IMG/VR virus record: IMGVR_UViG_3300032893_003099
Location: 1-22,496 of that record
Direction: 5' to 3' (one strand)
DNA from: a virus
DNA: 22,496 nucleotides
Positions 493 through 19,475 of the stretch are shown here, one piece after another. The notes under the pieces are model-generated. The model had not been told where the DNA came from. It was given only the letters and a program-made list of their open reading frames with translations, and ran no database searches. Within the stretch, counting starts at the first letter, position 1; every line of letters starts with the position of its first letter. A program made the position numbers and the translations under genes.

Positions 493-2040
493 TCAGTTCT
501 CCTGGGCCGGGGCGGCCTTCTTGTTCTTCTGCTCGGCGTCCTCGCGCATGCTGCGCTCGAGCCACGTCTCGTTCGGGCGCGCGTCCAGGCCGTCGACGCG
601 GACGGTCGGCGGAACGAACGAAGCGCCTTTCGGGGCGTTCCAGGCCTCGCGCGCGGGGTCCACGACCGGAAGGGCCGCGATGCCGTCGGCGCGCGCGCGG
701 TAGTAGGCGGGCGCCTCGTTCTGCGGCGCCTTCGCGTCCGACTTCAGGACGATCGCCTTGTCGAGGTCGGCCGGCGCCATCGAGTCGAACTTGTCGACGC
801 CCATGCGCTTCGCGAGCTCGCGACGGGCCATGACGGCCGCGCCGTAGCGGATGGCGAGGTCGGCCAGCGGCTCCTTCGCGTCTTTCTTGTCGGACGGCGG
901 GACCTGGGCTTCCATGCCGCCGCGTTCCGCCATGAGGTCGTCGTACGCCTTCTTCATGGCGTCCGCGGAGCCCTTCGTGGTCGCGTGCGCGGCCTTTTCC
1001 TCGGCGAGCTCCTGCTCGGCCGCGGACAGCTTCTCGTGGAGCTTGTCGTGTGCGGCGGCCAGCGCGGCCATCGCGGGGGACATCGACGCGTCGTTGACGA
1101 GCGTGTCGGCGTCGGCGCGGGTCACACCCTGCGCCAGAAGGAACTCCAGCAACTTCACGTTGACCTCCTTCCGGGGCGACGCGCGCCACGCGGGAGTTTC
1201 TTGATGACCGTCCGCGCGCAGGTGGCAGGTGTTGCCGCCCCGGGCCGCATCGACGATCGCGAGATGGTTGGCGCGCCGCGCGATCTGGATGGCGTCGTAC
1301 CGCCCATGGACCGGGTCGACACCGGGCGTTTCCGCACATGTGACCTGGTAGCCGGGGCTGATCTCGACCACGCCATCCCTGACGGCGTCGAGCGCGTCTT
1401 TCCGGCGAACCGCGAGCTTGATGCGAACGTGGCCGCCAGCCGCGGTGACCTCGGACGCGTCCGGGTCGGTCGTGTCGCCCACGCTGTACTTCTGGTACGT
1501 CTCGGGCCGGACCTCTTCGGGCGGATGCTGAAGCGTCACGGTCGCGCGGGCAAGGGATTCGAGCCACGCGGGATCGGTCAGCGTCTCGGCCGGCACGAGC
1601 TCGCGGCGGGTCGACCCGTCGGCGTTCTGGTAGATGAGCACGCCGGGATGCGCGACCTGACACTCGTAGAGGACCGCGCCGTCGGTGTCGCGTCTGAAGG
1701 GGCGCAGAAGCTGGCCGACGCCGCGGTCGTACCGCGTCACCGCGTCGCCGCGATGCGCTTCGAGGAGGCTCTGCGCCTTCTTCGTGGCGGCCGCCTTCGC
1801 CGCGGCGGGAACGTCGGCCTGCGGGATGCGCGACAGCGCGTTCTTGACATGAACGAGGTCGACCTTGCCGGACGCGTCCTTGAACGGGAAGTGCCGCAGG
1901 TCGCGCGGCGTCGTCTTGCCGCTTTCGTCCTTGGTTCCGCCCGGTTCGATGTAAAGGAAGCACTCGTCTTCAAGGTTGTTGATGTATGCTGTCGACCACA
2001 CGGAGTCCGCGGCATCGCGGCGGAACGACGAGGTCACCAC
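493..2040 (-). CDS. DUF2213 head morphogenesis protein (protease/scaffold-like)
   Basis: About 515 residues. Residues ~10-97 form a small domain seen at the N-terminus of phage head proteins (VWSTAYINNLEDECFLYIEPG, RHFPFKDASGKVDL). Residues ~100-285 match DUF2213: TLQHPPEEV, the VVEISPGY segment and NHLAIVDAARGG are its hallmark blocks. A coiled coil follows (~325-380, AAHDKLHEKLSAAEQELAEE), then a charged tail. The His block and the Ser in EISPGY resemble prohead protease arrangements, and the C-terminal coiled coil resembles a fused scaffold. The protease role is inference. The reading frame extends upstream as a shadow of the HNH gene, so the start is placed at the GTG pair at 2040/2037, directly before conserved sequence. 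No clear ribosome site is visible. Its 5' end abuts the divergent HNH gene with no spacer. The stop is 3 nt before the next start at 489. Confidence 0.8.
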   Translation of the reverse strand: MVTSSFRRDAADSVWSTAYINNLEDECFLYIEPGGTKDESGKTTPRDLRHFPFKDASGKVDLVHVKNALSRIPQADVPAAAKAAATKKAQSLLEAHRGDAVTRYDRGVGQLLRPFRRDTDGAVLYECQVAHPGVLIYQNADGSTRRELVPAETLTDPAWLESLARATVTLQHPPEEVRPETYQKYSVGDTTDPDASEVTAAGGHVRIKLAVRRKDALDAVRDGVVEISPGYQVTCAETPGVDPVHGRYDAIQIARRANHLAIVDAARGGNTCHLRADGHQETPAWRASPRKEVNVKLLEFLLAQGVTRADADTLVNDASMSPAMAALAAAHDKLHEKLSAAEQELAEEKAAHATTKGSADAMKKAYDDLMAERGGMEAQVPPSDKKDAKEPLADLAIRYGAAVMARRELAKRMGVDKFDSMAPADLDKAIVLKSDAKAPQNEAPAYYRARADGIAALPVVDPAREAWNAPKGASFVPPTVRVDGLDARPNETWLERSMREDAEQKNKKAAPAQEN

Positions 2041-2565
2041 ATGGCGACGGACGCTGGGAAGATCTGCGCTTTTTGCGGCAACAGGTTTGTCCGAACGCAT
2101 CCGAGCCAGACACGTCGGGCGATGTTTTGCAGCGTCGAATGTCGTGCCGAGGCGGCTCGTGGCCGACCGAAAGGGGCGCCCATCTTTGTGACGCGCGACT
2201 GTGAGGTCTGCGGCACCCAGATGTCGTTTCGACAGAAACGCGCGCAACGCGCATGCAGCAATGCGTGCCGACACGTTTTGCAGTCCCGGCTGATGCAAGG
2301 CCGACGCCGGCTCGGAGTCGATGAAGGATACGGGTCTACGGCTACCTTCCGAATCATGGCTAGGCGCGCCTTCGCGCCGCGATGCGCCATCTGTGGCTGG
2401 GCCGAGGCCCCGTGCGACGTCTGCCACATCGTGGCCAAGAAAAGCGGGGGCTCCGACAGCCTCGACAATGTCGTCATGCTGTGCCCGAACCACCACCGCG
2501 TGTTCGATCGCGGCATGATCACGGCCGATGCCGTGCGCCGCGCTCGCGAGGGAACGCTGCGCTGA
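2041..2565 (+). CDS. HNH homing-type endonuclease with two zinc ribbons
   Basis: 174 residues. ATG at 2041 is preceded by GAGG seven bases upstream. Residues ~8-34 hold a Cys4 ribbon (CAFCG ... CSVEC) and ~52-79 a second (CEVCG ... CSNAC). The C-terminal HNH core is clear: CAICGW, CDVCHIVAKKSGG (the DHV-type metal/catalytic His), then NVVMLCPNHHRVFDRG. The fold cleaves DNA with one metal ion. Free-standing HNH genes in phages are usually selfish or assist packaging. This one points against the surrounding late genes and abuts the start of DUF2213, so it is best read as part of an inserted plus-strand cassette. It lies next to head genes, and HNH proteins can cooperate with terminase in cos phages, so a packaging role is possible but not indicated by anything else here. 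Confidence 0.85.
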   Translation: MATDAGKICAFCGNRFVRTHPSQTRRAMFCSVECRAEAARGRPKGAPIFVTRDCEVCGTQMSFRQKRAQRACSNACRHVLQSRLMQGRRRLGVDEGYGSTATFRIMARRAFAPRCAICGWAEAPCDVCHIVAKKSGGSDSLDNVVMLCPNHHRVFDRGMITADAVRRAREGTLR

Positions 2566-2610
2566 TCCGACCGCGTCGTCCGCGTCAGCCCGAAAGCCCG
2601 TAGTGGTCCG

Positions 2611-2624
2611 TGGTGCCCGCACCA
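2611..2624. promoter_or_regulatory. Perfect palindrome TGGTGC-CC-GCACCA in HNH/RHH gap
   Basis: Six-base arms with a two-base spacer lie 46 nt after the HNH stop. No T-run follows, so this is more likely a protein site than a terminator. It is about 45 nt upstream of the promoter of the next gene. Confidence 0.35.
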
Positions 2625-2647
2625 TGACGCGAAACCTACCCCAGAAA

Positions 2648-2699
2648 CCGACAGGGGCGTCAGTTACCGTGGACGGTGCGACAAGAGCCGTGCTAGGCT
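2648..2699 (+). promoter_or_regulatory. Promoter of the RHH cassette, apparently leaderless
   Basis: A -35 of TGGACG (2670-2675), an 18-nt spacer and a -10 of TAGGCT (2694-2699) are followed by six bases and then the ATG at 2706. Transcription would start at or next to the A of the start codon. No Shine-Dalgarno sequence is present. Just upstream, 2648-2663 reads CCGACA-GGGG-CGTCAG. One half matches the CTGACG-N4-CGTCAG palindromes at 6058 and 7651, and the other half matches at 4 of 6 bases, so the promoter may share a regulator with the late genes. Confidence 0.5.
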
Positions 2700-2705
2700 T
2701 GCGCC

Positions 2706-2900
2706 ATGAACATGTCGCTCCACATTTCCGTCGACGACCTTGCCGCCGCCAAGCTGGCCGAGGTAAGAGACCAGGGGGAGAGCCCCAGTAAATTTATCGC
2801 GGAACTGCTGGTCTTCGCTGCTGCGCGAGGCTGGAAGACCCGCATCGCCGTGCAGCGCGCCATCGCCCGCGAGCGGCGGAAGGACAAGGAGCACCCGTGA
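2706..2900 (+). CDS. Ribbon-helix-helix DNA-binding protein
   Basis: 64 residues. The N-terminal MSLHISVDD strand is followed by two helices (LAAAKLAEVRDQG; SPSKFIAELLVFAAARG), the pattern of MetJ/Arc/CopG-type proteins that bind DNA as dimers through the beta ribbon. A basic tail (RERRKDKEHP) follows. There is no ribosome site. The promoter -10 lies six bases before the ATG, so translation is probably from a leaderless mRNA. The stop overlaps the next start (GTGA), implying co-translation. A likely role is repression of its own cassette or of nearby late promoters (inference). Confidence 0.7.
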   Translation: MNMSLHISVDDLAAAKLAEVRDQGESPSKFIAELLVFAAARGWKTRIAVQRAIARERRKDKEHP

Positions 2901-3073
2901 CCCGCCTTCTCCCCTGCAAGTGCGGGCACACCCCGCAGCTCAAAGACATCGGACAGGGCCGGTGGCTCGCCTTCTGCCCGAACAAGGACTGCGGCCATCA
3001 AGTCGTACACGTCGGCGACATGTTCGACACCATCAAGGTGTGGAACGACATCGCCGTCAGGGAGGGGCGGTGA
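2897..3073 (+). CDS. Lar-like small zinc-ribbon protein
   Basis: 58 residues, GTG start overlapping the previous stop by four bases. The pattern LLPCKCGHTPQL ... FCPNKDCGHQV ... DTIKVWNDIA follows phage and prophage Lar (restriction alleviation) proteins: a first Cys pair (here CKC rather than CxxC), a strand pair, a second Cys pair, and a C-terminal Trp-Asn. Lar modulates type I restriction in Rac prophage. Most homologues are untested, so only the fold is claimed. Its stop overlaps the next GTG. A plain zinc-ribbon protein of unknown role is the alternative. Confidence 0.6.
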   Translation: MTRLLPCKCGHTPQLKDIGQGRWLAFCPNKDCGHQVVHVGDMFDTIKVWNDIAVREGR

Positions 3074-3249
3074 AGTTCCTCACGGTGGACCTCATCGACG
3101 GCGGCCGCGCTCTCGTAAACTGCGACCAGATCACATCGATTCGACGCGAGCAAGACGGCGCCGAGGTCCGCACGGCGGACGGCGACCGGATGCGGACGAA
3201 GACGCCGTTCGACGAGTTCATCCAGTACTGCCGCTACCTTTCCGGCTGA
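3070..3249 (+). CDS. Small beta-rich protein, unknown function
   Basis: 59 residues, GTG start overlapping the stop of the zinc-ribbon gene (GTGA). KFLTVDLIDGGRALVNCDQITSIRREQDGAEVRTADG reads as a run of strands ending in a helix (FDEFIQYCRYL). The pattern resembles short FlbD-like proteins often annotated as hypothetical in phages. The gene ends tail to tail with the portal gene, overlapping it by 16 nt (3234-3249), so the cassette is fitted tightly against the late operon. No function is proposed. Confidence 0.65.
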   Translation: MKFLTVDLIDGGRALVNCDQITSIRREQDGAEVRTADGDRMRTKTPFDEFIQYCRYLSG

Positions 3250-5036
3250 TCCTTCGCCGGAACCCCCGTCGGGAACCACACCCCGACCCGCAGGCCCGAC
3301 GCGAGCGTGACCGTCCGGCGCGTGAAGTCAGGCGCTTCGTACTCGTCGAGCGCCGCCAGCGCGGGCGCCGTGATCTGGTAGACCTCGACCACCGCGGACG
3401 TCCCCATCCTCGCCGTCAGCGCGGGCCCCGCGTCCGGGCCGGTGATGTGCTCGACCGCCCAGCCCGGAAGTCGGTCGTCCGGAAGACGGACCGCGTTCGC
3501 GCCGAGCCGCCAGTGGTTCTCGCCGCCCGCGCGCCCCGTTCCGTAGATGCCGACCAGGGCCGACGGAGCAGCCGCGTCCGCGTTCCCCATCTTCGACCCC
3601 GCGCCGACCAGCGGAACCGGCTTTCCCGGGACCTCCTCCACATCTTCGGGGTCGACCGGGAGGATCTCCGTCGAGTACCCCTCCGGGCCGTACCGGGACG
3701 CCGCGACCACCTTCGCCGAGACGACCCCGTTCGTCATGTAGACCTGGTCGGTCTGCGCGATCCGCCACCGCATCTCCGCGATCTCGGTGTCGGACATCTC
3801 CTCGTACGCCGGGAACTTCACGTCGTACGCCCCGGGGACCTCGCCGCCCCCCGTGTTCGCCCGCGCCGCGTACAGCACCTCGACCAGCCGCAACAGGTTC
3901 GGCCGAAGCCGCTGCTGCCGCCCGCTCGTCACGAGGTTCGCCATGAGCGCGCGGTGACTGTCGCCGTCGGTGTTCAAGCCGCCCGGAGGCTGGCCGAATA
4001 GGACCGTCTCCGGGTACCGCGAGGCGGCCGCAAGCGCCGCGCGAGCGCTCTCGTGGACCTCCTTCCAGCCCGAGGCCCGGATCTGCTTCAGGGCGAAGTC
4101 GTCCTCGGCGTCCATGATGAGGCCGTTCGTCAGCCCGCGAAGACGCTGCTGAATCGTCATGCGCGTGAACAGCGTGCTCGCCTGGTCCGACGTCGTCAGC
4201 GACGCGAGACCCTTGATCTTCTGGACCGATGTGGACCATTCCTGCGCCAGAATCGCCGCCGCCTGATCGATGACGGTCATGTTCCGGATCGGGTCCCACG
4301 TCGCCTGAAGCACGCTGTCGTCGAACCCGCCGTTCGCGTACCGCATCGCCGGCGGAAGACGCTCTCCCGCGAAGTACAGCACGCGGCTGTGATGAACTTC
4401 CTTCCCGAGCAAGTACGTCAGCGCGCTGTTCGCCCCGGGCTGCGTCGCAGCCACGATCGGCGCGAGCCGCCACATCTTCACTTCGCGGAAGTTGTCCGAT
4501 GTGATGTCGCCGTCGAAGTCGGCCGGCGCGGCCTCATACCGAGACATGACCTGAAGCGCCTTGATCCCCTTCACCTTCGACAGGTCAAGAGGCGACGACA
4601 GGTCGTACGGGGTCGTCTCGTCGGTCACCATGACGATGACGGCGCCGCCGTGCAGACGGCCCCACGTCCACGCCTCCTGGAAGAGCGGGAGCACGGCCAG
4701 CCGTTGGAACTCGGTCTGGAACGGGTCGACCTGCTCCGTGGAGTCCTCGACCCACCATCCCTTCCGGCACGCCTCGGCCGGGAGCAGGTTCACGACCAGC
4801 TTCGCGTACGCGTTGAACCGCCAGAGCTGGTCGAGCTGAATCCACTGGAGCGGACCCCGCTGCATGTCGACCTGGGCCGCGGTCGTCTTGTCGCCCCAGC
4901 CGCCGAGGCCGGTCAGGAAGTTCGCGACGCTATCGTCGCGCGTCGAAGAAAGCCCCGCCGAGGCCACCGTGGGAACCGATGGCGCAACGGCGGGGGCGGG
5001 GAGAAGCCGCGCCGCGATTCGGGCGCGAAGGCTCAT
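3234..5036 (-). CDS. Phage portal protein (DUF1073 type) fused to a gamma-glutamylcyclotransferase-like domain
   Basis: 600 residues. Residues ~30-470 match the DUF1073 portal family: WRFNAYAKLVVNLLPAEACRKGWW, the ARAALAAASRYPETVLFGQPPGG block, and YEEMSDTEIAEMRWRIAQTD. The portal dodecamer forms the packaging vertex. After a Pro/Gly linker, residues ~493-590 form a second domain not needed by a portal: LVGIYGTGR (498-502 is the YGS/T substrate loop), VVEVYQITAPALAALDEYEAPDFTRRTV, and RVGVWFP. This is the AIG2/gamma-glutamylcyclotransferase pattern. E567 in LDEYE aligns with the catalytic Glu of human GGCT (LDEQEG). The Pfam family is named after proteins in which a DUF1073 portal region precedes an Acb1 anti-CBASS domain, so the C-terminus is known to carry cargo domains. 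The start ATG follows the previous stop by 3 nt. Confidence 0.85.
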   Translation of the reverse strand: MSLRARIAARLLPAPAVAPSVPTVASAGLSSTRDDSVANFLTGLGGWGDKTTAAQVDMQRGPLQWIQLDQLWRFNAYAKLVVNLLPAEACRKGWWVEDSTEQVDPFQTEFQRLAVLPLFQEAWTWGRLHGGAVIVMVTDETTPYDLSSPLDLSKVKGIKALQVMSRYEAAPADFDGDITSDNFREVKMWRLAPIVAATQPGANSALTYLLGKEVHHSRVLYFAGERLPPAMRYANGGFDDSVLQATWDPIRNMTVIDQAAAILAQEWSTSVQKIKGLASLTTSDQASTLFTRMTIQQRLRGLTNGLIMDAEDDFALKQIRASGWKEVHESARAALAAASRYPETVLFGQPPGGLNTDGDSHRALMANLVTSGRQQRLRPNLLRLVEVLYAARANTGGGEVPGAYDVKFPAYEEMSDTEIAEMRWRIAQTDQVYMTNGVVSAKVVAASRYGPEGYSTEILPVDPEDVEEVPGKPVPLVGAGSKMGNADAAAPSALVGIYGTGRAGGENHWRLGANAVRLPDDRLPGWAVEHITGPDAGPALTARMGTSAVVEVYQITAPALAALDEYEAPDFTRRTVTLASGLRVGVWFPTGVPAKDQPER

Positions 5037-5039
5037 GGT

Positions 5040-6020
5040 CTACGCGATCTCGACCGTGAAGGCGTCGAGCGTGACCACGTTGTCAGAACCGTTCGCGGAC
5101 CATGTCGCGTTCGGCAACACGACCTGGGCCGACGTGGTGTCGAGCGAGGTGCCACCGGACGCGGTGTGGAACGTCTTCACCGTCGTTCCAGCCGGGTCGA
5201 TGTAGGTGCCGGAACCGTAGATCTTCGCGCCGGCGCCCGCCGTGCCGCACATGAACTCGAACCGCATCCAGCCCTTGTCGTGAAGCGACGTGTCCACCGC
5301 GCTCGTCGCCTGGACCGTCGCGCCGCCCAGCGTCAGCGTGAAGGTCAGCGTGGTCGCGCCGGCCGAGGTCGTCACCTCGTAGTGCGCGTACACGACCACC
5401 TTGCTGCCGGTCTTGAGCGTGTTCGCCGGGATCGTGTAGCCCGAGCCGATCGGCAGGATCGTGTTGACGGTGTTCGTGGCCGTCGGCAGGCTCGTGTCCG
5501 ACGCCGCCCGACCGCCCACCACGCGCGCCGTGCCCGACGCGACCCCGTCCGTGGTCGTCAGGCGCTTCGTCGCGTTGATGGCCTCCGCGTTGTCCGTCGT
5601 CACGAACGTCAGGTAGGCGTTCGTGCCTTCCTTGATCGTCCACGCCGCCGCGAGGTTGTCGGTCAGCTTCACCAGCGACACGCCCGTCGCGCCGCTCGTC
5701 AGGTCGAGGACGACGCCGCCCGCCGCAGTCGACTGCGCGATCAAGTCGGTCTTCAGGCCGCTCGCGCCGAAGTTGTTCTCCGGCACGCCGATCGACCAGG
5801 TCCCGTCGCCGGCCGACTTGTACTCGACGCCCGCGTCGACGTCGAGCCATTCGCAGTACGCGCAAGGCGCCGCGATGTTCGGCGGCCCATGCGCGGCCCA
5901 CCGGAGCGGGCTGTTCAGGAAGAGCGGCCCGTCCCCCGGGACGAGCAACTGAAGCCCGGAAACCTGGATGATCGCCCCGTTGTGCAGTTCGGGGCGCTCG
6001 CCCACGCGCTGGCTCGCCAT
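5040..6020 (-). CDS. Beta-rich virion structural protein (fibre/decoration-like)
   Basis: 326 residues with GGAGGT five bases before the ATG at 6020. The N-terminal 90 residues include CAYCEWLDVDAGVEYKSAGDGTW. Residues ~100-150 (VLDLTSGATGVSLVKLTDN, AAAWTIKEGTNAYLTFVTTDN) match a beta module repeated in many phage tail and head appendage proteins. The C-terminal half (TLKTGSKVVVYAHYEV, TLTFTLTLGGATVQ) is a jelly-roll-like domain. It has almost no helix-forming stretches and is rich in Thr, Gly, Ser and Ala. It sits between the terminase large subunit and portal genes, which are usually adjacent, so a head fibre or decoration protein is more likely than a tail fibre (inference). The palindrome at 6058-6073 lies in its leader. 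Confidence 0.65.
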   Translation of the reverse strand: MASQRVGERPELHNGAIIQVSGLQLLVPGDGPLFLNSPLRWAAHGPPNIAAPCAYCEWLDVDAGVEYKSAGDGTWSIGVPENNFGASGLKTDLIAQSTAAGGVVLDLTSGATGVSLVKLTDNLAAAWTIKEGTNAYLTFVTTDNAEAINATKRLTTTDGVASGTARVVGGRAASDTSLPTATNTVNTILPIGSGYTIPANTLKTGSKVVVYAHYEVTTSAGATTLTFTLTLGGATVQATSAVDTSLHDKGWMRFEFMCGTAGAGAKIYGSGTYIDPAGTTVKTFHTASGGTSLDTTSAQVVLPNATWSANGSDNVVTLDAFTVEIA

Positions 6021-6057
6021 GAGACCTCCGTTTCAGGCCGGAGGGTATCACGGAAGA

Positions 6058-6075: not shown

Positions 6076-7629
6076 TCACGCGAAAGCTGCGGGCCCGAAC
6101 TGCCGAAGTAGTAGTTCGAGGCCGCGATTGCTGTGCTTGATGGTGCCCTTCGCCGTCCAGTGCGAGAGCAGTTGCGACGTCGCGTCGACCTGATCGTCGT
6201 GCTTCGCGTACGGGAAGTTCGCGAGCTCCTCCACGTACGCCCGCAGCCATGGCGCGTACCGGTCCTGCGGGAAAAGCACGTCACCGGCCGCGAAGTACGG
6301 CGTGACCCGATTCGCCCGCGCGAACTTGTCGCCGTCCCCGGCCGGGTCGTACGGCACGATCCCCGAGATCTGCGACTTCATGTCGGCGATGAGGTCGACG
6401 CCGCTCGCCCGCTCCTCGATGAGCTTCAGGCCGGCCTGCGGCCACTTGATGACCATCAACCTGAAGACCTCGCGCAGCGTTGGCAGGTCCATCCGCTGGA
6501 CGTGCGCGTCGAGCAGGCAGAACTTCGGGCCCCTCCGGCCCCACACCAGGATCGCCGTCGGGTCGGCCGACTCCTTTGCCTTGAAGCCTGTGTCGACCGT
6601 GATTGCAACCTCGTCCCACGGCGTCTCCGGTCGCTGCGGGTGGTCGTCGAACCGATGGATCGGCTGCCCGTTCTCGTCCCACGCCAGCCAGTCCCGCTTG
6701 AACAGGCCGCCGCTCCGGGGAACCGGGTTCTGCTGGTACATCGCAGCGAACCAGCCCGGGTCCATCGCGCGGCTGACTTCGAGCTCGGCCAGCGGAAACC
6801 GCGCCGGATGAAGCGCCTCGCCCGCCTTCCTGTACTTCTCGTCATGTTCGGCGATCGCCGGGAGGCTGATGACCTCCCACTTCTCCCCGGTCTGCTCCGC
6901 AATCGCCAACATCCGCCCCGGCGGATCGTCGAGGTGCCATCGCGTCGAGATGCACAGCACCCCCGCCCCCGGCGCGCGACGGCTGTACGCATCGGCCCGG
7001 TACCATTCCCAGACCGTGTTCCGCTGGAGGTCGCTCATCGCAGCCTGTTGTCCTGACAGGATGTCGTCAATGACCAGGATATGGGCCCCCTTTCCTTGGA
7101 TGGCCGTCCCGGCGCCAACCGCGGTGTAGCACCCGCCGCCCTTGACGCGCCACTGCTCGACGCCCCAGGTCGTCCCCTGCGCCAGCCCCGGGAACTGCCC
7201 TTGGAAGTCCGTCGCCAGCGCGCGCGCCGACCGCGAGAAGATGTTCGCGAGATCCTGCGTGTTCGACGCGACCATGATCTCGTGCGACGGGTAGTGCGCG
7301 AGGTGCCAGACCGGAAACCGCTCCGTTGCGATCGAGCTCTTCCCATGTCGAGGCGGCATGTTGATCATCAACCGCGGACTCTTGCGCTCCGCCACCGCCC
7401 GACTGAACCGCTGCAACGCCTCGAACATGATTGTGTGGTGCCAGTTCTCCTCGAAGTCGGGGTAGCACTGCCGGACGAACGACCCGAAGTCCACGTCAGC
7501 CTGAACCCGGGCCTTCGCCTCCGCCTCCGCCTTCAGCTTCGACAACAACGCCGCCGCCTCGTCGTCCCGCATCTTCGCGACGAGCCGGTCAACGTCCTCG
7601 GGCGTCAGCTTCTGCTTCGGAGGGGCCAC
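6076..7629 (-). CDS. terL: Terminase large subunit
   Basis: 517 residues, the ATPase-nuclease that pumps DNA into the prohead through the portal. Walker A is MPPRHGKSS (91-99) and Walker B is ILVIDDIL (184-191), followed by CISTRWH (227-232), the coupling motif seen in many terminases. The RNase H-like nuclease acidic residues are D346 (VDTGFK), E406/E407 (LIEERASG) and D478/D479 (KHDDQVDA). The N-terminus has a charged coiled segment (~15-45). The start is a GTG at 7629; no good ribosome site is visible, but there is no upstream start in frame before the palindrome at 7651. It is driven by the promoter at 7722-7750. The small subunit gene lies about 6.2 kb away (13834-14490), an unusual separation. 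Confidence 0.95.
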   Translation of the reverse strand: MAPPKQKLTPEDVDRLVAKMRDDEAAALLSKLKAEAEAKARVQADVDFGSFVRQCYPDFEENWHHTIMFEALQRFSRAVAERKSPRLMINMPPRHGKSSIATERFPVWHLAHYPSHEIMVASNTQDLANIFSRSARALATDFQGQFPGLAQGTTWGVEQWRVKGGGCYTAVGAGTAIQGKGAHILVIDDILSGQQAAMSDLQRNTVWEWYRADAYSRRAPGAGVLCISTRWHLDDPPGRMLAIAEQTGEKWEVISLPAIAEHDEKYRKAGEALHPARFPLAELEVSRAMDPGWFAAMYQQNPVPRSGGLFKRDWLAWDENGQPIHRFDDHPQRPETPWDEVAITVDTGFKAKESADPTAILVWGRRGPKFCLLDAHVQRMDLPTLREVFRLMVIKWPQAGLKLIEERASGVDLIADMKSQISGIVPYDPAGDGDKFARANRVTPYFAAGDVLFPQDRYAPWLRAYVEELANFPYAKHDDQVDATSQLLSHWTAKGTIKHSNRGLELLLRQFGPAAFA

Positions 7630-8318: not shown

Positions 8319-8675
8319 CTACCACCCATTCGCCGGCTTCATGTCCGGCGCCTCCAGCCGTGACACCTGCATCCCCGTCGTCGACAGCACGTCCAGCACC
8401 ATCGCGTACGTCAGCGGCGTGCGCAGAGTCGCCCCCGACATGAGCGTGACCGTCGTGCCGCGTGGTTCCGCCCACACGCTCCCGATGTCCGTCGACCTCA
8501 CCGTTACCCGGCCCCCCTTCTCGAGCGGCAGGTCCAGCCACATCGGCATCGGCGTCGCCTGCCCGTCCATGACGACCGCGACCTGCCCGTTGTCGAGCAC
8601 CGTCAGGACCCGGTCCAACGCCTCGCCCCGAAGGTCCGCACGCGCCTCGTCCTCGTTGTCGTACGACTTGATCAT
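8319..8675 (-). CDS. Small hypothetical protein in leftward operon
   Basis: 118 residues from the ATG at 8675, with GGGGAGAA before it. The upstream extension of the frame is arginine/serine rich and is a shadow of the neighbouring genes, so the internal ATG is chosen. N-terminus is acidic and helical (YDNEDEARADLRGEALDRVLTVL). The middle (VAVVMDGQATPMPMWLDLPLEKGGRVTVRS, GTTVTLMSGA) looks like a small beta domain. No motif is recognised. It is the fifth gene of a set whose members overlap by four bases or have short gaps, starting at 9668. Confidence 0.6.
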   Translation of the reverse strand: MIKSYDNEDEARADLRGEALDRVLTVLDNGQVAVVMDGQATPMPMWLDLPLEKGGRVTVRSTDIGSVWAEPRGTTVTLMSGATLRTPLTYAMVLDVLSTTGMQVSRLEAPDMKPANGW

Positions 8676-8712
8676 GGTGTTCTCCCCTTGTTCGCCGCGA
8701 GGGCGAGGTTTT

Positions 8713-8871
8713 TCATGGCCGCGCCACGCAGACGGGCCCGAGCATGCCACGGACGACCACGCCGTTCGGGCAATCCGCCGCGACAGCGGCGTACCAGACA
8801 GCCGCGCCGGGAAGCAGCAGAAACGCGAGAAGGAACGGCCACAATCCCGCATGGTCGTCGTCGTGGTTCAT
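8713..8871 (-). CDS. Small single-pass membrane protein
   Basis: 52 residues. The acidic N-terminus (MNHDDDHAG) is followed by one hydrophobic segment (residues ~10-31, LWPFLLAFLLLPGAAVWYAAVA) and a short tail with two cysteines (ADCPNG ... GPVCVARP). The ATG lies inside the stop of the upstream gene (8868), so translation is coupled. Size, single transmembrane helix and coupling fit the small phage membrane proteins that act as superinfection-exclusion or spanin/holin-like proteins, but nothing here separates these. Its stop overlaps an ATG for a 14-codon frame that itself ends on the start codon at 8675, which may serve to carry ribosomes forward. Confidence 0.6.
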   Translation of the reverse strand: MNHDDDHAGLWPFLLAFLLLPGAAVWYAAVAADCPNGVVVRGMLGPVCVARP

Positions 8872-9167
8872 GGCGCCGCCTCCAGGGCCGCGACCAGGGC
8901 TTCGGCAACGACGGGGCTGTAGAGGTCATGGATGCCCCAGGCCTCCCGAACAAGCCCCAGCAGCGCCCCGACGGTCGCAAGGTCGGAAAGATCCGGCAGC
9001 TCCGCTTCGTCGACCTCGCTGAACGAGCCGAACCCGTCCCCGGGGCGCCAGCACACCCCGTTGTCGCCGAGCAGGACCGCGCCGCTCAACGTCGACATGC
9101 CCTTGCGCCAGCGCCAGCCCTTGCAGGAGACAGCGCGACGGCCGAGCCGTTCAAGATCAGCGTTCAT
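8868..9167 (-). CDS. Hypothetical phage protein, Trp-rich N-terminus
   Basis: 99 residues with GGAGG eight bases before the ATG at 9167. LERLGRRAVSCKGWRWRKGM, DLSDLATVGALLGLVREAWG and VAEALVAALEAA match a type of short protein frequent in phages of GC-rich hosts and in bacterial accessory regions, with no assigned function. There is no catalytic motif, and the protein is probably soluble. It overlaps the 30-residue gene upstream by 11 nt and the membrane protein gene downstream by 4 nt. Confidence 0.7.
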   Translation of the reverse strand: MNADLERLGRRAVSCKGWRWRKGMSTLSGAVLLGDNGVCWRPGDGFGSFSEVDEAELPDLSDLATVGALLGLVREAWGIHDLYSPVVAEALVAALEAAP

Positions 9168-9249
9168 CCCGTACCTCCAGTTCCCGCTTCGCCCACAGAA
9201 CCGCGTCCGCCTGCCACGCGCCGTCGGGCGCGATGTAGATGGTGGTCAT
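9157..9249 (-). CDS. 30-residue peptide, coupled
   Basis: MTTIYIAPDGAWQADAVLWAKRELEVRDER. The ATG at 9249 overlaps the stop of the upstream gene (ATGA), and the stop overlaps the next gene by 11 nt, so the frame is embedded in a chain of coupled genes. It has no independent ribosome site. Predicted as one strand and one helix. Too short for homology by eye. Confidence 0.45.
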   Translation of the reverse strand: MTTIYIAPDGAWQADAVLWAKRELEVRDER

Positions 9250-9668
9250 GGCCGCCACCCCGCCGGCGCCCACGGCGAGCCAGGGCCGGCGACCAGGACG
9301 GCGCCCCCGGGGGGCCACAGCTCCTCGGGGTATGACGTCGCCCCGAGCGTGACGAGGCCCCCGACCACGCTCGTCACGAGACCGTGCTCGCCGTTCGGCA
9401 GCACCCACACCTGTCCGCACAGCGGCGGCGGGGCGGGTAGAGGGTGGGCGGCGTCGACGTACGACAGCGCCGCGTCACAGTCGGCATGCTGAATGAAGTC
9501 GGCCTCTTCTGCCTGCGACCACCATCCCGGTCCGGGGCCGACCAGACTGCGCCCGTCCTCGAACCAGACACGGGCGCCATCGCGCCGATGCCAGCCCGAT
9601 CCGGCGCGCCACCACGGCCTCTCCGGGTGCGCGTTCGGGTGCTGCGGGTAGATCTCGAACGGGTTCAT
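9246..9668 (-). CDS. Hypothetical protein, first gene of leftward operon
   Basis: 140 residues, with GGAGGGG before the ATG at 9668. Rich in Trp, Pro and Gly (MNPFEIYPQHPNAHPERPWW, GSGWHRRDGARVWFEDGRSL, CGQVWVLPNGEHGLVTSVVGGLVTLG). The last part reads as a small SH3-like or KOW-like beta barrel around a VWVLPNGEHGLVTSV core. No enzyme motif is seen. It is transcribed from the leftward half of the symmetric promoter at 9688-9716, with a start about 15-20 nt upstream of the ATG. Confidence 0.6.
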   Translation of the reverse strand: MNPFEIYPQHPNAHPERPWWRAGSGWHRRDGARVWFEDGRSLVGPGPGWWSQAEEADFIQHADCDAALSYVDAAHPLPAPPPLCGQVWVLPNGEHGLVTSVVGGLVTLGATSYPEELWPPGGAVLVAGPGSPWAPAGWRP

Positions 9669-9687
9669 CGCCCCTCCTTCCAGAAAC

Positions 9688-9716
9688 TTGTACCATGCCG
9701 TCGGACGTGGTACAAC
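9688..9716. promoter_or_regulatory. Symmetric bidirectional promoter and operator
   Basis: TTGTACCA (9688-9695) and TGGTACAA (9708-9715) are perfect inverted arms. On the plus strand this gives TTGTAC, 17 nt, TACAAC (9711-9716). On the minus strand it gives TTGTAC, 17 nt, TACAAG. One palindrome therefore provides -35 and -10 boxes in both directions and is itself a repressor-sized dyad. It drives the 9668 gene leftward and the 9744 gene rightward, so the two transcription units would compete for polymerase and be co-repressed. Confidence 0.65.
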
Positions 9717-9743
9717 CCTTCCAGAAGAAAAGGAGCCGACCCC

Positions 9744-9992
9744 ATGCCCCGACCGAAGCGCCTCAACCCGAACCACTGGCCCGACTGGCTCATCGACGAC
9801 GTCGACGCCTGGGCCGCTACCCAGAACCTCTCCCGCGCCGCCGCCGCCCGCGCCCTCATCATCGCCGGCGCCAACGCCCTCGGCGTCCCCCTCCACATCC
9901 CCACTCCCCCCGAAGTCGAAGCCGCCCGCGCTACCCTCCGCGACTACAAGCGCCAGATCAAGGCGTTGAAGCTGAATGGAGGTGGCCGATGA
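9744..9992 (+). CDS. RHH/CopG-like DNA-binding protein
   Basis: 82 residues with AGGAG eight bases before the ATG. MPRPKRLNPNHWPDWLIDDVDAWAA, then LSRAAAARALIIAGANALG, resembles the two-helix part of a ribbon-helix-helix regulator with a basic N-terminal strand. A C-terminal helix (EVEAARATLRDYKRQIKALKL) may mediate oligomers. It is the first gene right of the symmetric promoter at 9688-9716, so autoregulation is a natural guess. Wobble positions are almost all C, as in the next gene and unlike the 11161-13232 operon. The stop overlaps the next ATG (ATGA). Confidence 0.6.
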   Translation: MPRPKRLNPNHWPDWLIDDVDAWAATQNLSRAAAARALIIAGANALGVPLHIPTPPEVEAARATLRDYKRQIKALKLNGGGR

Positions 9993-10828
9993 GAGGCCGC
10001 CCGCGTACCCCCGTCGACCCCGACGCCTTTCGGAAGGCCTGGCTCGATGGCCTCCCCGTCGACCAGATCGCCCGACGCCTCCACGTCGCCCCCTACCGCA
10101 TCCCCCGGATCGCCGCCGACCTCGGCCTTCCCCATCCCCGCCCACACCGCGCCTCCAAAGACGTCGCCGCCCTCTGGCGCCAAGGCCTCTCCGTCCGCGA
10201 AATCGCCGACCGCCTCTCCCTCTCCGACCCCACCATCCGCCGCATCCTCGACCGCCTCTCCCTCACCCCACATCACCCCTCTCCCAAGCCCGACCCCCGC
10301 CTCGGTACCGTCCCCGACTCCGTCCTCGCCGCCGAGCTCGGCCTCTCCCGCCAGCGCATCGCCCAGATGCGCGCCTACCACAACATCCCATCCTTCTCCG
10401 CCCAAAAACGAGCCTCCGTCTCCTACGACGACATCCGCGACCTACTCCTCGCCGGCCTCTCCAACGCCGCCATCTCCGCCCAACTCGGCGCCCATCACTC
10501 CCTCGTCCGTCAAATCCGCCGCGACCTCAACCTCCCCCCAGCTACCTCCATCGCCCGAGACCGCCGCGACGCCCTCATCCAACCCCTCGCCGGGACCATG
10601 TCCCAGCGCGACATCGCCGAAAAAACCGGCATCCCCCGCGACGCCGTCGACGACTACTTCCAACGCCATCCCGACGCCCCCCGCTTCCGCCATTACAACC
10701 GCTGGAACCCCCTCCCCCTCGACCGCGCTCGCGCCCTCCTCGCCGAAGGAAAGTCCCTCCAAGAAACGGCCGAACTCCTCGGTACCAGCACCGAAAGCCT
10801 TCGCTTCGCCCTCCGGCGCCGGAAGTGA
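9989..10828 (+). CDS. Multi-helix-turn-helix DNA-binding protein (six HTH units)
   Basis: 279 residues. Six helix-turn-helix-like units are visible at ~20-46 (GLPVDQIARRLHVAPYRIPR), ~65-92 (GLSVREIADRLSLSDPTIRR), ~108-132 (VLAAELGLSRQRIAQMR), ~149-181 (GLSNAAISAQLGAHHSLVRQ), ~193-226 (MSQRDIAEKTGIPRDAVDD) and ~246-277 (GKSLQETAELLGTSTESLRF). They resemble the Hin/resolvase or transposase-type HTH. No recombinase, nuclease or integrase core accompanies them, so the protein looks like a long-site DNA binder: a regulator or nucleoprotein organiser. It is coupled to the RHH gene (ATGA) and its stop overlaps the methyltransferase remnant (GTGA). Confidence 0.75.
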   Translation: MRGRPRTPVDPDAFRKAWLDGLPVDQIARRLHVAPYRIPRIAADLGLPHPRPHRASKDVAALWRQGLSVREIADRLSLSDPTIRRILDRLSLTPHHPSPKPDPRLGTVPDSVLAAELGLSRQRIAQMRAYHNIPSFSAQKRASVSYDDIRDLLLAGLSNAAISAQLGAHHSLVRQIRRDLNLPPATSIARDRRDALIQPLAGTMSQRDIAEKTGIPRDAVDDYFQRHPDAPRFRHYNRWNPLPLDRARALLAEGKSLQETAELLGTSTESLRFALRRRK

Positions 10829-11046
10829 CCCTCGGCTCCCTTTTCTCCGGGATCGGCGGGTTTGACGGTTCCGATGCCGTCAGAACGGGCCGAGAACCAA
10901 CCCTTAGGACGGTAACCCGGGATGGGACCCTTTCGGTTTTGAGGAAGGGGTGGGGAGGGAGGTTTTTCCAGGAGGGACGTGTAGGGGGAGGTTTTCCGCG
11001 CGCCGGACCTCGAGACGGGGGGCCCCTGAACGCGTTTTCAGGGTAG
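10825..11046 (+). pseudogene. Stub of a C5 cytosine DNA methyltransferase
   Basis: The GTG overlaps the stop of the HTH gene. VTLGSLFSGIGGFD is motif I (S-adenosylmethionine site, FSGxGG) as found at the very N-terminus of C5 methyltransferases. After FD the expected LGLERAG sequence is replaced by GSDAVRTGREPTL and then low-quality, Gly/Arg-rich sequence to the stop at 11046. Motif IV (PCQ) and the rest are absent. The break lies at an inverted repeat, TGACGG (10863-10868) and CCGTCA (10877-10882). The simplest reading is an internal deletion that left the coupled start. The 73-codon frame cannot be an enzyme. Confidence 0.6.
11024..11043. repeat. Hairpin at end of methyltransferase stub
   Basis: CCCTGAA (11024-11030), six-base loop, TTCAGGG (11037-11043). 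No T-run follows on either strand, so termination here would have to be factor-dependent. The 10829-11160 stretch otherwise holds G-rich runs (10947-10990) and the promoter described at 11081-11115. Confidence 0.35.
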
Positions 11047-11080
11047 GGGGGGCATGGGTTCGTGACATATGGTGACAATA

Positions 11081-11115
11081 TTACGGTACACGACAAGCCG
11101 GGTGCGGTGTACAGT
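11081..11115 (+). promoter_or_regulatory. Probable promoter of the 11161-13232 operon
   Basis: TACAGT (11110-11115) is a good -10. The -35 candidates are TACACG at 17 nt or TTACGG at 23 nt, neither strong. GTACAC (11086-11091) and GTGTAC (11107-11112) form an inverted repeat over the promoter. The same hexamers are the core of the repeats in 14553-14862, so one regulator could see both places. AT content rises here (GACATATGGTGACAATATTA). Confidence 0.4.
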
Positions 11116-11160
11116 GACTGTGTGACCGGCGGTTGACGCCTGGCCCGGAGGATCGCCCCC

Positions 11161-11391
11161 ATGCACGCCTACTGCGACGAGGTCGACGCGAAGCCCGCGA
11201 TCAAGCACGCGCTCATCTCTTACGACGAGCCGGCGCCGCTCGGGTGGCTCGTCGTCAGCCCGGAGGGCGCGTTTTTCTCGGAGTCGAGGATCGCGGCGGC
11301 GCGCGTGAAGGGCGCGTCGGAGCGCCGCGGCCTCCGCGTCATCGTCGCGCGCGCCCGCTGGACGGACGCGGGCCCGCAGATTGTTCGCTGA
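11161..11391 (+). CDS. Small hypothetical protein, first gene of rightward operon
   Basis: 76 residues, with GGAGGATC upstream of the ATG. HAYCDEVDAKPAIKHALISYDEPAPLGWLVVSPEGAFFSE followed by RIAAARVKGASERRGLRVIVARARW. It looks like a compact alpha/beta protein with a basic second half. No family is recognised. It heads a run of six small genes on the same strand with uniform ribosome sites, a layout typical of phage early accessory (host-takeover or anti-defence) operons. That assignment is by position only. Confidence 0.6.
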   Translation: MHAYCDEVDAKPAIKHALISYDEPAPLGWLVVSPEGAFFSESRIAAARVKGASERRGLRVIVARARWTDAGPQIVR

Positions 11392-11409
11392 CACCACAGA
11401 GGAGGATCA
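11391..11409 (+). repeat. Translation leader repeat, copy 1
   Basis: The 19-base sequence ACACCACAGAGGAGGATCA directly precedes the ATG at 11410 and recurs exactly at 11622-11640. It contains the ribosome site GGAGG. Confidence 0.7.
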
Positions 11410-11616
11410 ATGCGGCAAGCTATCAGCTACTACTATCCCCTCACTCACGGCGCCCCGCGCGATGGCCGCACCCTGTGCGGCGCGACCGACGGGCGCCGGT
11501 ATAGCGGCAGTGGCGTCCACTGCGTCACATGCCCCGAGTGCCTCGCCGTCTACCGGCGCCACTGGCTGCCTCTCTCGGAGATCCGCGAGCTGCTACCCGG
11601 CGGCTCGACGCTCTGA
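11410..11616 (+). CDS. Small zinc-finger-like protein
   Basis: 68 residues. MRQAISYYYPLTHGAPRDGRTLCGATDGRRYSGSGVHCVTCPECLAVYRRHW: C23 and the HCVTCPEC cluster could bind one zinc ion. The C-terminus (LSEIRELLPGG) is helical. Small proteins with this His/Cys spacing are common in actinobacterial-type phages and accessory regions, usually unassigned. Strong GGAGG is supplied by the repeated leader. The next gene starts 26 nt downstream. Confidence 0.6.
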   Translation: MRQAISYYYPLTHGAPRDGRTLCGATDGRRYSGSGVHCVTCPECLAVYRRHWLPLSEIRELLPGGSTL

Positions 11617-11621
11617 CACAC

Positions 11622-11640
11622 ACACCACAGAGGAGGATCA
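11622..11640 (+). repeat. Translation leader repeat, copy 2
   Basis: Exact copy of 11391-11409, one base before the ATG at 11642. The last ten bases (AGGAGGATCA) also precede the ATG at 11954. Confidence 0.7.
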
Positions 11641-17867: not shown

Positions 17868-19475
17868 TTACGCGTCCAGAAACGCGTTCACGATCTCGGG
17901 CAGCGCGGCGTCGAAGCCGACAACGTCGAGCTGCTTCGGGTCGGCCGGGTCGGCGACGGTGAAGCGGGTAGCCGTCATCGCGCACACGACCTGGTGGACG
18001 TCGCGGCCCATGCCGTGCCGATACGCGTCGAGCGCGTGCGTCGGCTGCATGCCCGTGTTGAGCTCGTTGTCGGTGTAGACCTCGACGACGTCGACCGGGA
18101 TCTTGTTCTGAAGCGCCCACCGCATCGGCAGCGAGATGTCGGTGCGGCCGAAGTCCGAGCGGAGGGTTTGCCCCGTCGCCTGTTGAAGCGTCATCTTCCC
18201 GTGGATGCCGAGGTCGATGAAGTTGTGAGTGAAGCCCATGACGTAGTAGCTGGACTCGACGCGGGCGCGGACCATCGCGAGCGCCGCGGTCGCCTGCGCG
18301 CAGGTCAGCGGATGGCCCGACAGGCGGCCGCCCATCGAACCCGACACGTCGAGCGCGAGCAGGTGCTTCTTCCCGGTCGGGACGAGCCCTTTGAAGCCGT
18401 TGTAGAACGCGGTATCGAGCGCGGCGCCGACTTGCGGGACGGGCTTCCAGGTGAGGCCGCCCTTCTCACCGTGACCCTGCGCGTAGGTGCCGATCGCGAG
18501 GAGCGTACGAAGCGGATGCAGCTTCGCCTTGACGACGTAGCTTTCGTCGGAAAGCTTCGCGCTGACCCTGCGTTCCGCGTCCGACAGCGGGGTCAACAGG
18601 CCGACGGCCGACATCTTCCCGAGGTTGCGGACGAGCGCGGTCGCGCCCATGTCGTCGAGCAGCGCGTCCCAGACCGCGGGCGAGTTGAGCATCTCGGTCC
18701 GCACGCCCTCTCGCGGCAGGCGATGGTCGCGGATGAGAGAGATCGTCTCCTTCTCGTCGGCGACCTTGGCCCGCTCGAACGCCCATAGGATGCGCATCGC
18801 ATCGGTAGGCGCCGGGATGTCGGTCGAGCCCTCCCAGCCCTTGGTCGCCCAGCGCAGGACGCGGTCAAACTCGCCGTTCCGCTCGTGACCGGAGGGACGC
18901 AGCAGGCGGAGAACGTCGCGGTGCGCGAACTTCTCGCGGCTCTGGTACTTCATGAGCTGGAAGGCGAGCGCGGCCGGATCGCGCTTCGTGTACCAGCTTT
19001 CGATGGCCTTCTTCGTCAGGCGCGAGAAGCCGTGACGGAAGCCCTTCAACATCGAGACGAGCATGAGGATGTCGGTGCCGATGTTGCAGACGAGCGGAAC
19101 GGCCGCAGCCGCCTCGCGCCGGACCTCGACGTCGGCGTGGTTTTTCAAGAGCCACGCGACCGTCCAGATCGCGGGCGCCTTCTTCATCGCGCGACCGGCC
19201 TGGGTCACGTCGACGGCCATCCGCAGCGCGCGTCGGCCGTCTTCCTTCGCGACGCGGGCAACGACGCCCACGTTTTCCAGCGTCTGCTCCTTCTCGGTGC
19301 AGTAGTAGGTCTGGCCCTCGGTCCCGAGGATGAGGAAGCGCTGAAACTGCGTCCAGTCTCCGGCGAGGAACGCCACGCCGCCGCCGTGGTTCGGGGCCAT
19401 CTCGGCGTCACGTCCGAGGATGGCGCGGTCGGCCGGCGTCGGCCCCTGGGCGTGTCGTTGCATCGGCGTAGTCAT
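17868..19475 (-). CDS. rsr: Ro60/Rsr-like TROVE-vWA RNA-binding protein
   Basis: 535 residues with GGAGGGG before the ATG at 19475. The TROVE region (~30-360) is a helical-repeat ring: FLILGTEGQTYY, GRRALRMAVDVTQAGRAMKK, LLKGFRHGFSR-type loops, KFAHRDVLRLLRP. The C-terminal von Willebrand A domain (~368-535) has the metal site DVSGSMGG (D376, S378, S380), TDIS (445-448) and VYTDNE (D469). This is the Ro60 architecture; bacterial orthologues (Rsr) bind Y RNAs and, in Deinococcus, tether them to polynucleotide phosphorylase in RNA decay. Immediately upstream are four Y-RNA-like elements and a terminator, so the gene and its RNAs form one module. Expression probably depends on read-through of that terminator, because no separate promoter is seen in the 17-nt leader. 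No rtcBA genes accompany it. Confidence 0.92.
   Translation of the reverse strand: MTTPMQRHAQGPTPADRAILGRDAEMAPNHGGGVAFLAGDWTQFQRFLILGTEGQTYYCTEKEQTLENVGVVARVAKEDGRRALRMAVDVTQAGRAMKKAPAIWTVAWLLKNHADVEVRREAAAAVPLVCNIGTDILMLVSMLKGFRHGFSRLTKKAIESWYTKRDPAALAFQLMKYQSREKFAHRDVLRLLRPSGHERNGEFDRVLRWATKGWEGSTDIPAPTDAMRILWAFERAKVADEKETISLIRDHRLPREGVRTEMLNSPAVWDALLDDMGATALVRNLGKMSAVGLLTPLSDAERRVSAKLSDESYVVKAKLHPLRTLLAIGTYAQGHGEKGGLTWKPVPQVGAALDTAFYNGFKGLVPTGKKHLLALDVSGSMGGRLSGHPLTCAQATAALAMVRARVESSYYVMGFTHNFIDLGIHGKMTLQQATGQTLRSDFGRTDISLPMRWALQNKIPVDVVEVYTDNELNTGMQPTHALDAYRHGMGRDVHQVVCAMTATRFTVADPADPKQLDVVGFDAALPEIVNAFLDA

Follow-up and report, generated by a model that had tools for sequence, protein, structure and literature searches.

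The locus described here raises a simple question. Does a phage portal protein end in an enzyme, and if so, what might an enzyme be doing there? The DNA analysed (the window) is the whole of IMG/VR record IMGVR_UViG_3300032893_003099, a metagenomic virus record of 22,496 bases that may be incomplete. Its packaging module lies on the minus strand in the order large terminase subunit (TerL), a 326-aa protein, portal, and an open reading frame (ORF) with a DUF2213 head maturation protease. TerL (6076-7629; PHROG 38, E 9e-107) is upstream of the portal, and the interval between them is occupied by the 326-aa protein (5040-6020), which is Ser/Thr/Gly-rich, matches nothing in Pfam or PHROG and is perhaps a fibre or decoration protein. 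The portal gene (3234-5036) encodes 600 aa. The protease ORF (493-2625; PF09979, E 2e-24; PHROG 530, E 1e-49) is the next virion gene after it, with the real start of the protease probably inside the ORF.

Several other features of the window deserve mention. Between the module genes lie small ORFs on the plus strand, one of which is HNH-like, and a zinc-ribbon/HNH-like endonuclease sequence in the portal-protease interval (2100-2565, plus strand) runs antisense over the long protease ORF. A MuF minor-head gene is missing between portal and protease (2625-3234), where most relatives have one. Elsewhere there is a Ro60-like protein with TROVE and vWA domains (17868-19475, minus strand; PF25045, E 8e-51; TROVE, E 1e-26; PHROG 850 'RNA-binding protein') and a frame with several helix-turn-helix repeats (9698-10828, plus strand; HTH_23, E 2e-20; Sigma70_r4_2, E 5e-15).

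It is clear that the 600-aa protein is a portal. It belongs to Phage_portal_3 (DUF1073), with a Pfam PF06381 match across residues 67-431 (E 1.2e-59) and a PHROG 146 match (E 2e-82), and its neighbours are TerL and the DUF2213 protease. A model of the full protein has the portal fold, and the top Foldseek matches are the solved portals of Pam3, E217 and FCWL1 (best E 3.6e-21). The core, residues 57-465 (3642-4868, minus strand), is confidently modelled. Confidence then falls away. From about residue 466 the pLDDT drops from about 59 to 34-40, and it is below 50 from residue 472, which marks residues 466-490 (3567-3641, minus strand) as a disordered linker of about 25 residues. Typical portal relatives stop soon after the core, around the position of this linker. 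The window portal does not. Its remaining residues, 491-600 (3237-3566, minus strand), form a further domain, which is poorly modelled in the full-length prediction, whose alignment had no gamma-glutamylcyclotransferase (GGCT) sequences.

This C-terminal domain is homologous to GGCT/AIG2 enzymes. The Pfam family GGACT (PF06094, AIG2-like superfamily) matches residues 497-587 at 37.2 bits (E 4.8e-9) in the whole protein and at 41.2 bits (E 2.8e-10) with the domain alone, against a curated cut-off of 22.8 bits. PHROG 2520, 'gamma-glutamyl cyclotransferase', also matches the portal (E 1.3e-6). When 34 viral GGCTs, with the window excluded, are made into a profile, the domain scores 29.5 bits, as compared with 3.2 for the top of 2,000 shuffles. 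The single domain sequence has no match to PDB chains at E 1, and profiles are needed to reach them. PADLOC matched neither portal nor domain.

The fold agrees with the family. An AlphaFold2 model of the domain, made from an alignment with the 34 viral GGCTs, has the GGCT fold (pLDDT 86.1, pTM 0.77). Because that alignment contains GGCTs, the modelled fold supports the homology without being separate evidence for it. The top structural match is Bacillus subtilis YkqA (Z 13.8, 1.3 A over 91 residues), followed by PH0828, mouse GGACT, human GGACT and human GGCT at Z 12-13; the PDB structures matched at Z 12-14 are 2qik, 1v30, 1vkb and 3jub. The nearest viral structure is the GGCT of Cellulophaga phage phi14:2. 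An earlier note on this DNA, made from the sequence alone, had proposed a GGCT-like domain at 3258-3560 on the portal and named a structure model with structural comparison as a check, and profile and model both bear it out.

The same note described the catalytic Glu as intact and the domain as a possible enzyme. The motifs are where they were said to be, with YGTGR at residues 498-502 (3531-3545, minus strand) and LDEYE at 563-567 (3336-3350, minus strand). The active site of mouse and human GGACT consists of Tyr7, Gly8, Thr9, Leu10, Ile50, Glu82, Tyr88, Tyr115 and Tyr143 (PMC2954230). Alignment with the LDDFE motif of GGACT places Glu567 (3336-3338, minus strand) at Glu82. Of the 153 viral GGCT domains, 152 have Glu in this column, which lies outside the search patterns. 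Retention of the Glu carries some weight because the family can lose it; E. coli YtfP, a member of the same family, reads LDALR at this position. The claim of an intact Glu therefore stands, and the NH motif, the loop Pro and Y498, G499 and T500 of the substrate loop are also kept.

The rest of the site is less orthodox. The loop reads YGTG, with Gly501 in place of the usual Leu of YGTL. The Leu10 column is Leu in all 151 viral GGCT relatives that have it, a count that comes from two motif patterns, the first of which permitted Gly and the second of which demanded Leu. Phe571 (3324-3326, minus strand) falls at the position of Tyr88, a column with Tyr in 150 and Phe in 3 of the 153 viral domains. 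The Ile50 position is Gly537. The strand that should carry Tyr115 reads GVWF, so that this Tyr is probably changed, and the domain is short at its C-terminus, lacking the GDW-ending segment of its relatives; the segment with Tyr143 is absent. The domain is thus set apart from GGACT proper, which has the full active-site set. Homology, modelled fold, YGT loop and Glu speak for the enzyme reading, although part of the active site has changed. Judged from the sequence, the chance that the domain is catalytically active is put at a little over one half.

What if the domain was once an enzyme and is one no longer? The GGCT domain, once acquired, might have become inactive or be on the way there, and might now only decorate or stabilise the portal. 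Such a decoration stays viable because several active-site positions differ: Leu10 has become Gly, Tyr88 has become Phe, the Tyr115 position has changed and the C-terminus is truncated. There is precedent, too, since GGCT-like folds occur in roles other than cyclotransferase, and a Paulinella transit-peptide part and the C-domain of allophanate hydrolase are among the structural matches to the model. Nevertheless, a decoration has no need of a catalytic Glu, and here that Glu is kept together with YGT, the NH motif and the loop Pro. A purely structural leftover is, on this evidence, somewhat unlikely.

How common is the fusion? Homologous portals without the domain exist, and in fact all the relatives found are without GGACT. 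The portal sequence matches 1,449 phage records by tblastn, none of which covers 80% of the query, and among the 60 matches listed none reaches past portal residue 502. The domain alone has just three weak phage matches. None of the 97 loci with portal relatives that were scanned with the GGACT profile (L002-L096, L178 and L179, some of them near-duplicates) gave a match, and neither did the 13 portal relatives (one repeating L095) from 398 genomes of the phylum of Hydrogenophaga. The 80 viral-contig and five genome-contig portals recovered with a portal alignment have no GGACT in their tails. Scans of viral contigs with single proteins and with domains returned no close relatives of the fusion. 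A sub-threshold GGACT match of 15.9 bits in the Vibrio phage CP-T1 portal, from a search of 50 related virus and phage records, lies within the core and was judged to be chance. Coming from the other side, GGACT-motif scans of viral contigs found GGACT in 176 loci, with no Phage_portal_3 fusion among them. Since neither the portal relatives nor the GGACT loci have it, the portal-GGACT fusion is a singleton in the collections searched, from which near neighbours may be missing. GGCT is not among the portal fusions described in PMC5512222 and PMC9503650, and a literature search found no paper linking a portal protein with gamma-glutamylcyclotransferase.

In the GGACT loci found by motif, the domain either has a gene to itself or is fused to a class-II glutamine amidotransferase-like domain with an MCLIIHKP... 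start. Such fusions are common among these viral loci (L105, L150, L191, L231 and many others). Most of the viral GGCTs found are thus small proteins on their own or parts of non-portal fusions, which invites another explanation. Perhaps the domain is a nested in-frame gene, in which a second start at Met480 yields a free enzyme of about 121 aa and the portal-linked form is incidental. The ATG at residue 480 is suitably placed, inside the linker and 18 residues upstream of the YGT loop, but by inspection there is no clear ribosome-binding site ahead of it, and a nested gene seems quite unlikely.

Is the portal an odd place to find such a domain? Other members of the family suggest that it is not. 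The portal of L010, a Rhodovastum atsumiense plasmid, carries Acb1 (PF23474) at residues 487-629 with 135 bits. The portal of L301 has an end closely similar to the Acb1-type end of L010, with a PHROG 146 match that runs to the end and a match to the 2H profile. These two confirm the earlier note's statement that Acb1 is found at the same end in this portal family. The window portal itself has no match to PF23474 or LigT-like profiles at E 10. The L178 portal (8480-10852, plus strand) comes from a locus with a TerL that is related to the window TerL as well; its tail has a Zeta-toxin-like kinase domain, with a match of 23.7 bits against a cut-off of 22.3 and a Walker A motif, GGGGSGKS. L046 has DUF5872 in its portal tail, and the portals of L002 and L024 have long tails with no Pfam match. 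In L308 a 1,087-aa frame (583-3843, plus strand) joins a portal domain to a long Gly/His-rich tail. The differing tail modules among relatives imply that the C-terminus of this portal family accepts different modules.

It is worth asking whether the join could be false. The reading frame is continuous through core, linker and domain, and GC3 is 0.91 in the domain, 0.91 in the core and 0.89 in TerL, so the domain is coding and the join shows no foreign composition. An assembly artefact joining the portal to an unrelated GGCT gene might be suspected in a singleton fusion from a metagenomic record, but with this continuity, and with other domains occupying the same place in relatives, it is very unlikely.

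The closest parallels are the portals of L010 and L301, which like that of the window are Phage_portal_3 proteins with their cargo at the C-terminus behind a linker. In L010, as in the window, the portal is followed directly by the DUF2213 protease gene, with no MuF. The L010 and window portals are about 21-26% identical, and the difference lies in the cargo, which is a 2H phosphoesterase (Acb1) in L010 and L301 and a cyclotransferase-like domain in the window. Both the window and L010 would fit the idea that cargo sits on the portal when MuF is missing. Yet long portals and MuF occur together in L024 and L008, and some short portals occur without MuF; the idea was dropped. Portal and MuF fusions to 2H, PBECR, InPase, Nudix and ART domains have been described as packaged effectors (PMC5512222, PMC9503650), InPase and 2H each as portal fusions (PMC5512222). 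An enzyme-family domain fused to a portal within a packaging module, as here, has the architecture of a virion-linked effector fusion in the sense of Iyer et al. (2017; PMC5512222).

On the enzyme side, the window domain has its Pfam family, fold, YGT loop and catalytic Glu in common with GGACT and with the YkqA/YtfP-type AIG2 proteins. It is unlike GGACT proteins in being fused to a portal, in having Gly for Leu10 and Phe for Tyr88, and in its shortened C-terminus. By sequence the nearest phage GGCT is that of phi14:2 (36% identity, mostly in the N-terminal half). This GGCT and that of the Clostridium clostridioforme prophages phi13 are encoded by separate genes with a ligase nearby, in contrast to a fusion with a virion protein. 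The phi14:2 gene adjoins ATP-grasp or amidoligase genes, as do GGCT genes in C. clostridioforme prophages (PMC11318856). In the window, whose record may be incomplete, the ORFs scanned include neither an ATP-grasp nor an amidoligase partner.

One unrelated virus offers a further parallel. In L109 a 1,103-aa protein encoded between TerL and portal combines InPase, 2H phosphoesterase and GGACT (69 bits) domains. As in the window, GGACT is found in a protein of the packaging module, here with other effector domains added. The L109 protein is separate from the portal, and the portal and terminase families differ from those of the window. A search for relatives of this polyvalent protein returned only itself. 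The L109 architecture favours counting GGACT among the effector domains already known to be linked to virions. The locus (2509-6042 and 9726-11636, minus strand) also has a portal split by a LAGLIDADG-type intein and a TerL ORF that opens with an apparent intein C-terminus directly ahead of its Walker A motif.

Overall, we think it somewhat probable that the gamma-glutamyl cyclotransferase-type domain, held behind the portal core by its flexible linker, is an enzymatic cargo tethered to the portal. Against this are the single contig and the fusion seen in no relative, the changes in the active site, the lack of a ligase partner among the ORFs scanned, the dependence of the modelled fold on GGCT sequences, and the fact that a covalently attached domain stays in the virion unless it is cleaved. 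A portal ring normally has twelve subunits, with the C-termini of known portals at the crown facing the capsid interior, and it does not leave the emptied virion. Each ring would then display about twelve copies of the domain near the C-terminal end of the portal. The domain would most likely cyclise a gamma-glutamyl amine or peptide, giving 5-oxoproline and a freed amine; gamma-glutamyl-amines, gamma-glutamyl peptides and glutathione-like compounds are all possible substrates.

When would it act? Because the portal stays behind, a tethered enzyme would have to work in the producing cell or be released. It might act late in the producing cell, during portal production. Conversely, if the linker is cut by the maturation protease encoded next to the portal, a possible processing enzyme, the domain might leave with the DNA and act from the virion. 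The only hint of a role in counter-defence is the company of the other portal-tail modules. In one specific version, an active cyclotransferase, delivered by the portal vertex or displayed on it, would remove either a gamma-glutamyl peptide tag or a molecule of host defence or signalling that has a gamma-glutamyl linkage. This version is unlikely. If true, it would mean that there is a bacterial defence or modification built on gamma-glutamyl chemistry, which phages counter as Acb1 counters CBASS.

An effector-type domain on a portal was already known; a gamma-glutamyl cyclotransferase-type cargo, as recognised here from sequence, would be a new addition. Gamma-glutamyl cyclotransfer chemistry would thereby join the set of modules at the C-terminus of one portal family, where the module understood best, Acb1, acts against CBASS. 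An active domain would point to a gamma-glutamyl substrate, so far unrecognised, either in the conflict between phage and host or in virion maturation, and portal tails would be a place for a systematic hunt for counter-defence enzymes.
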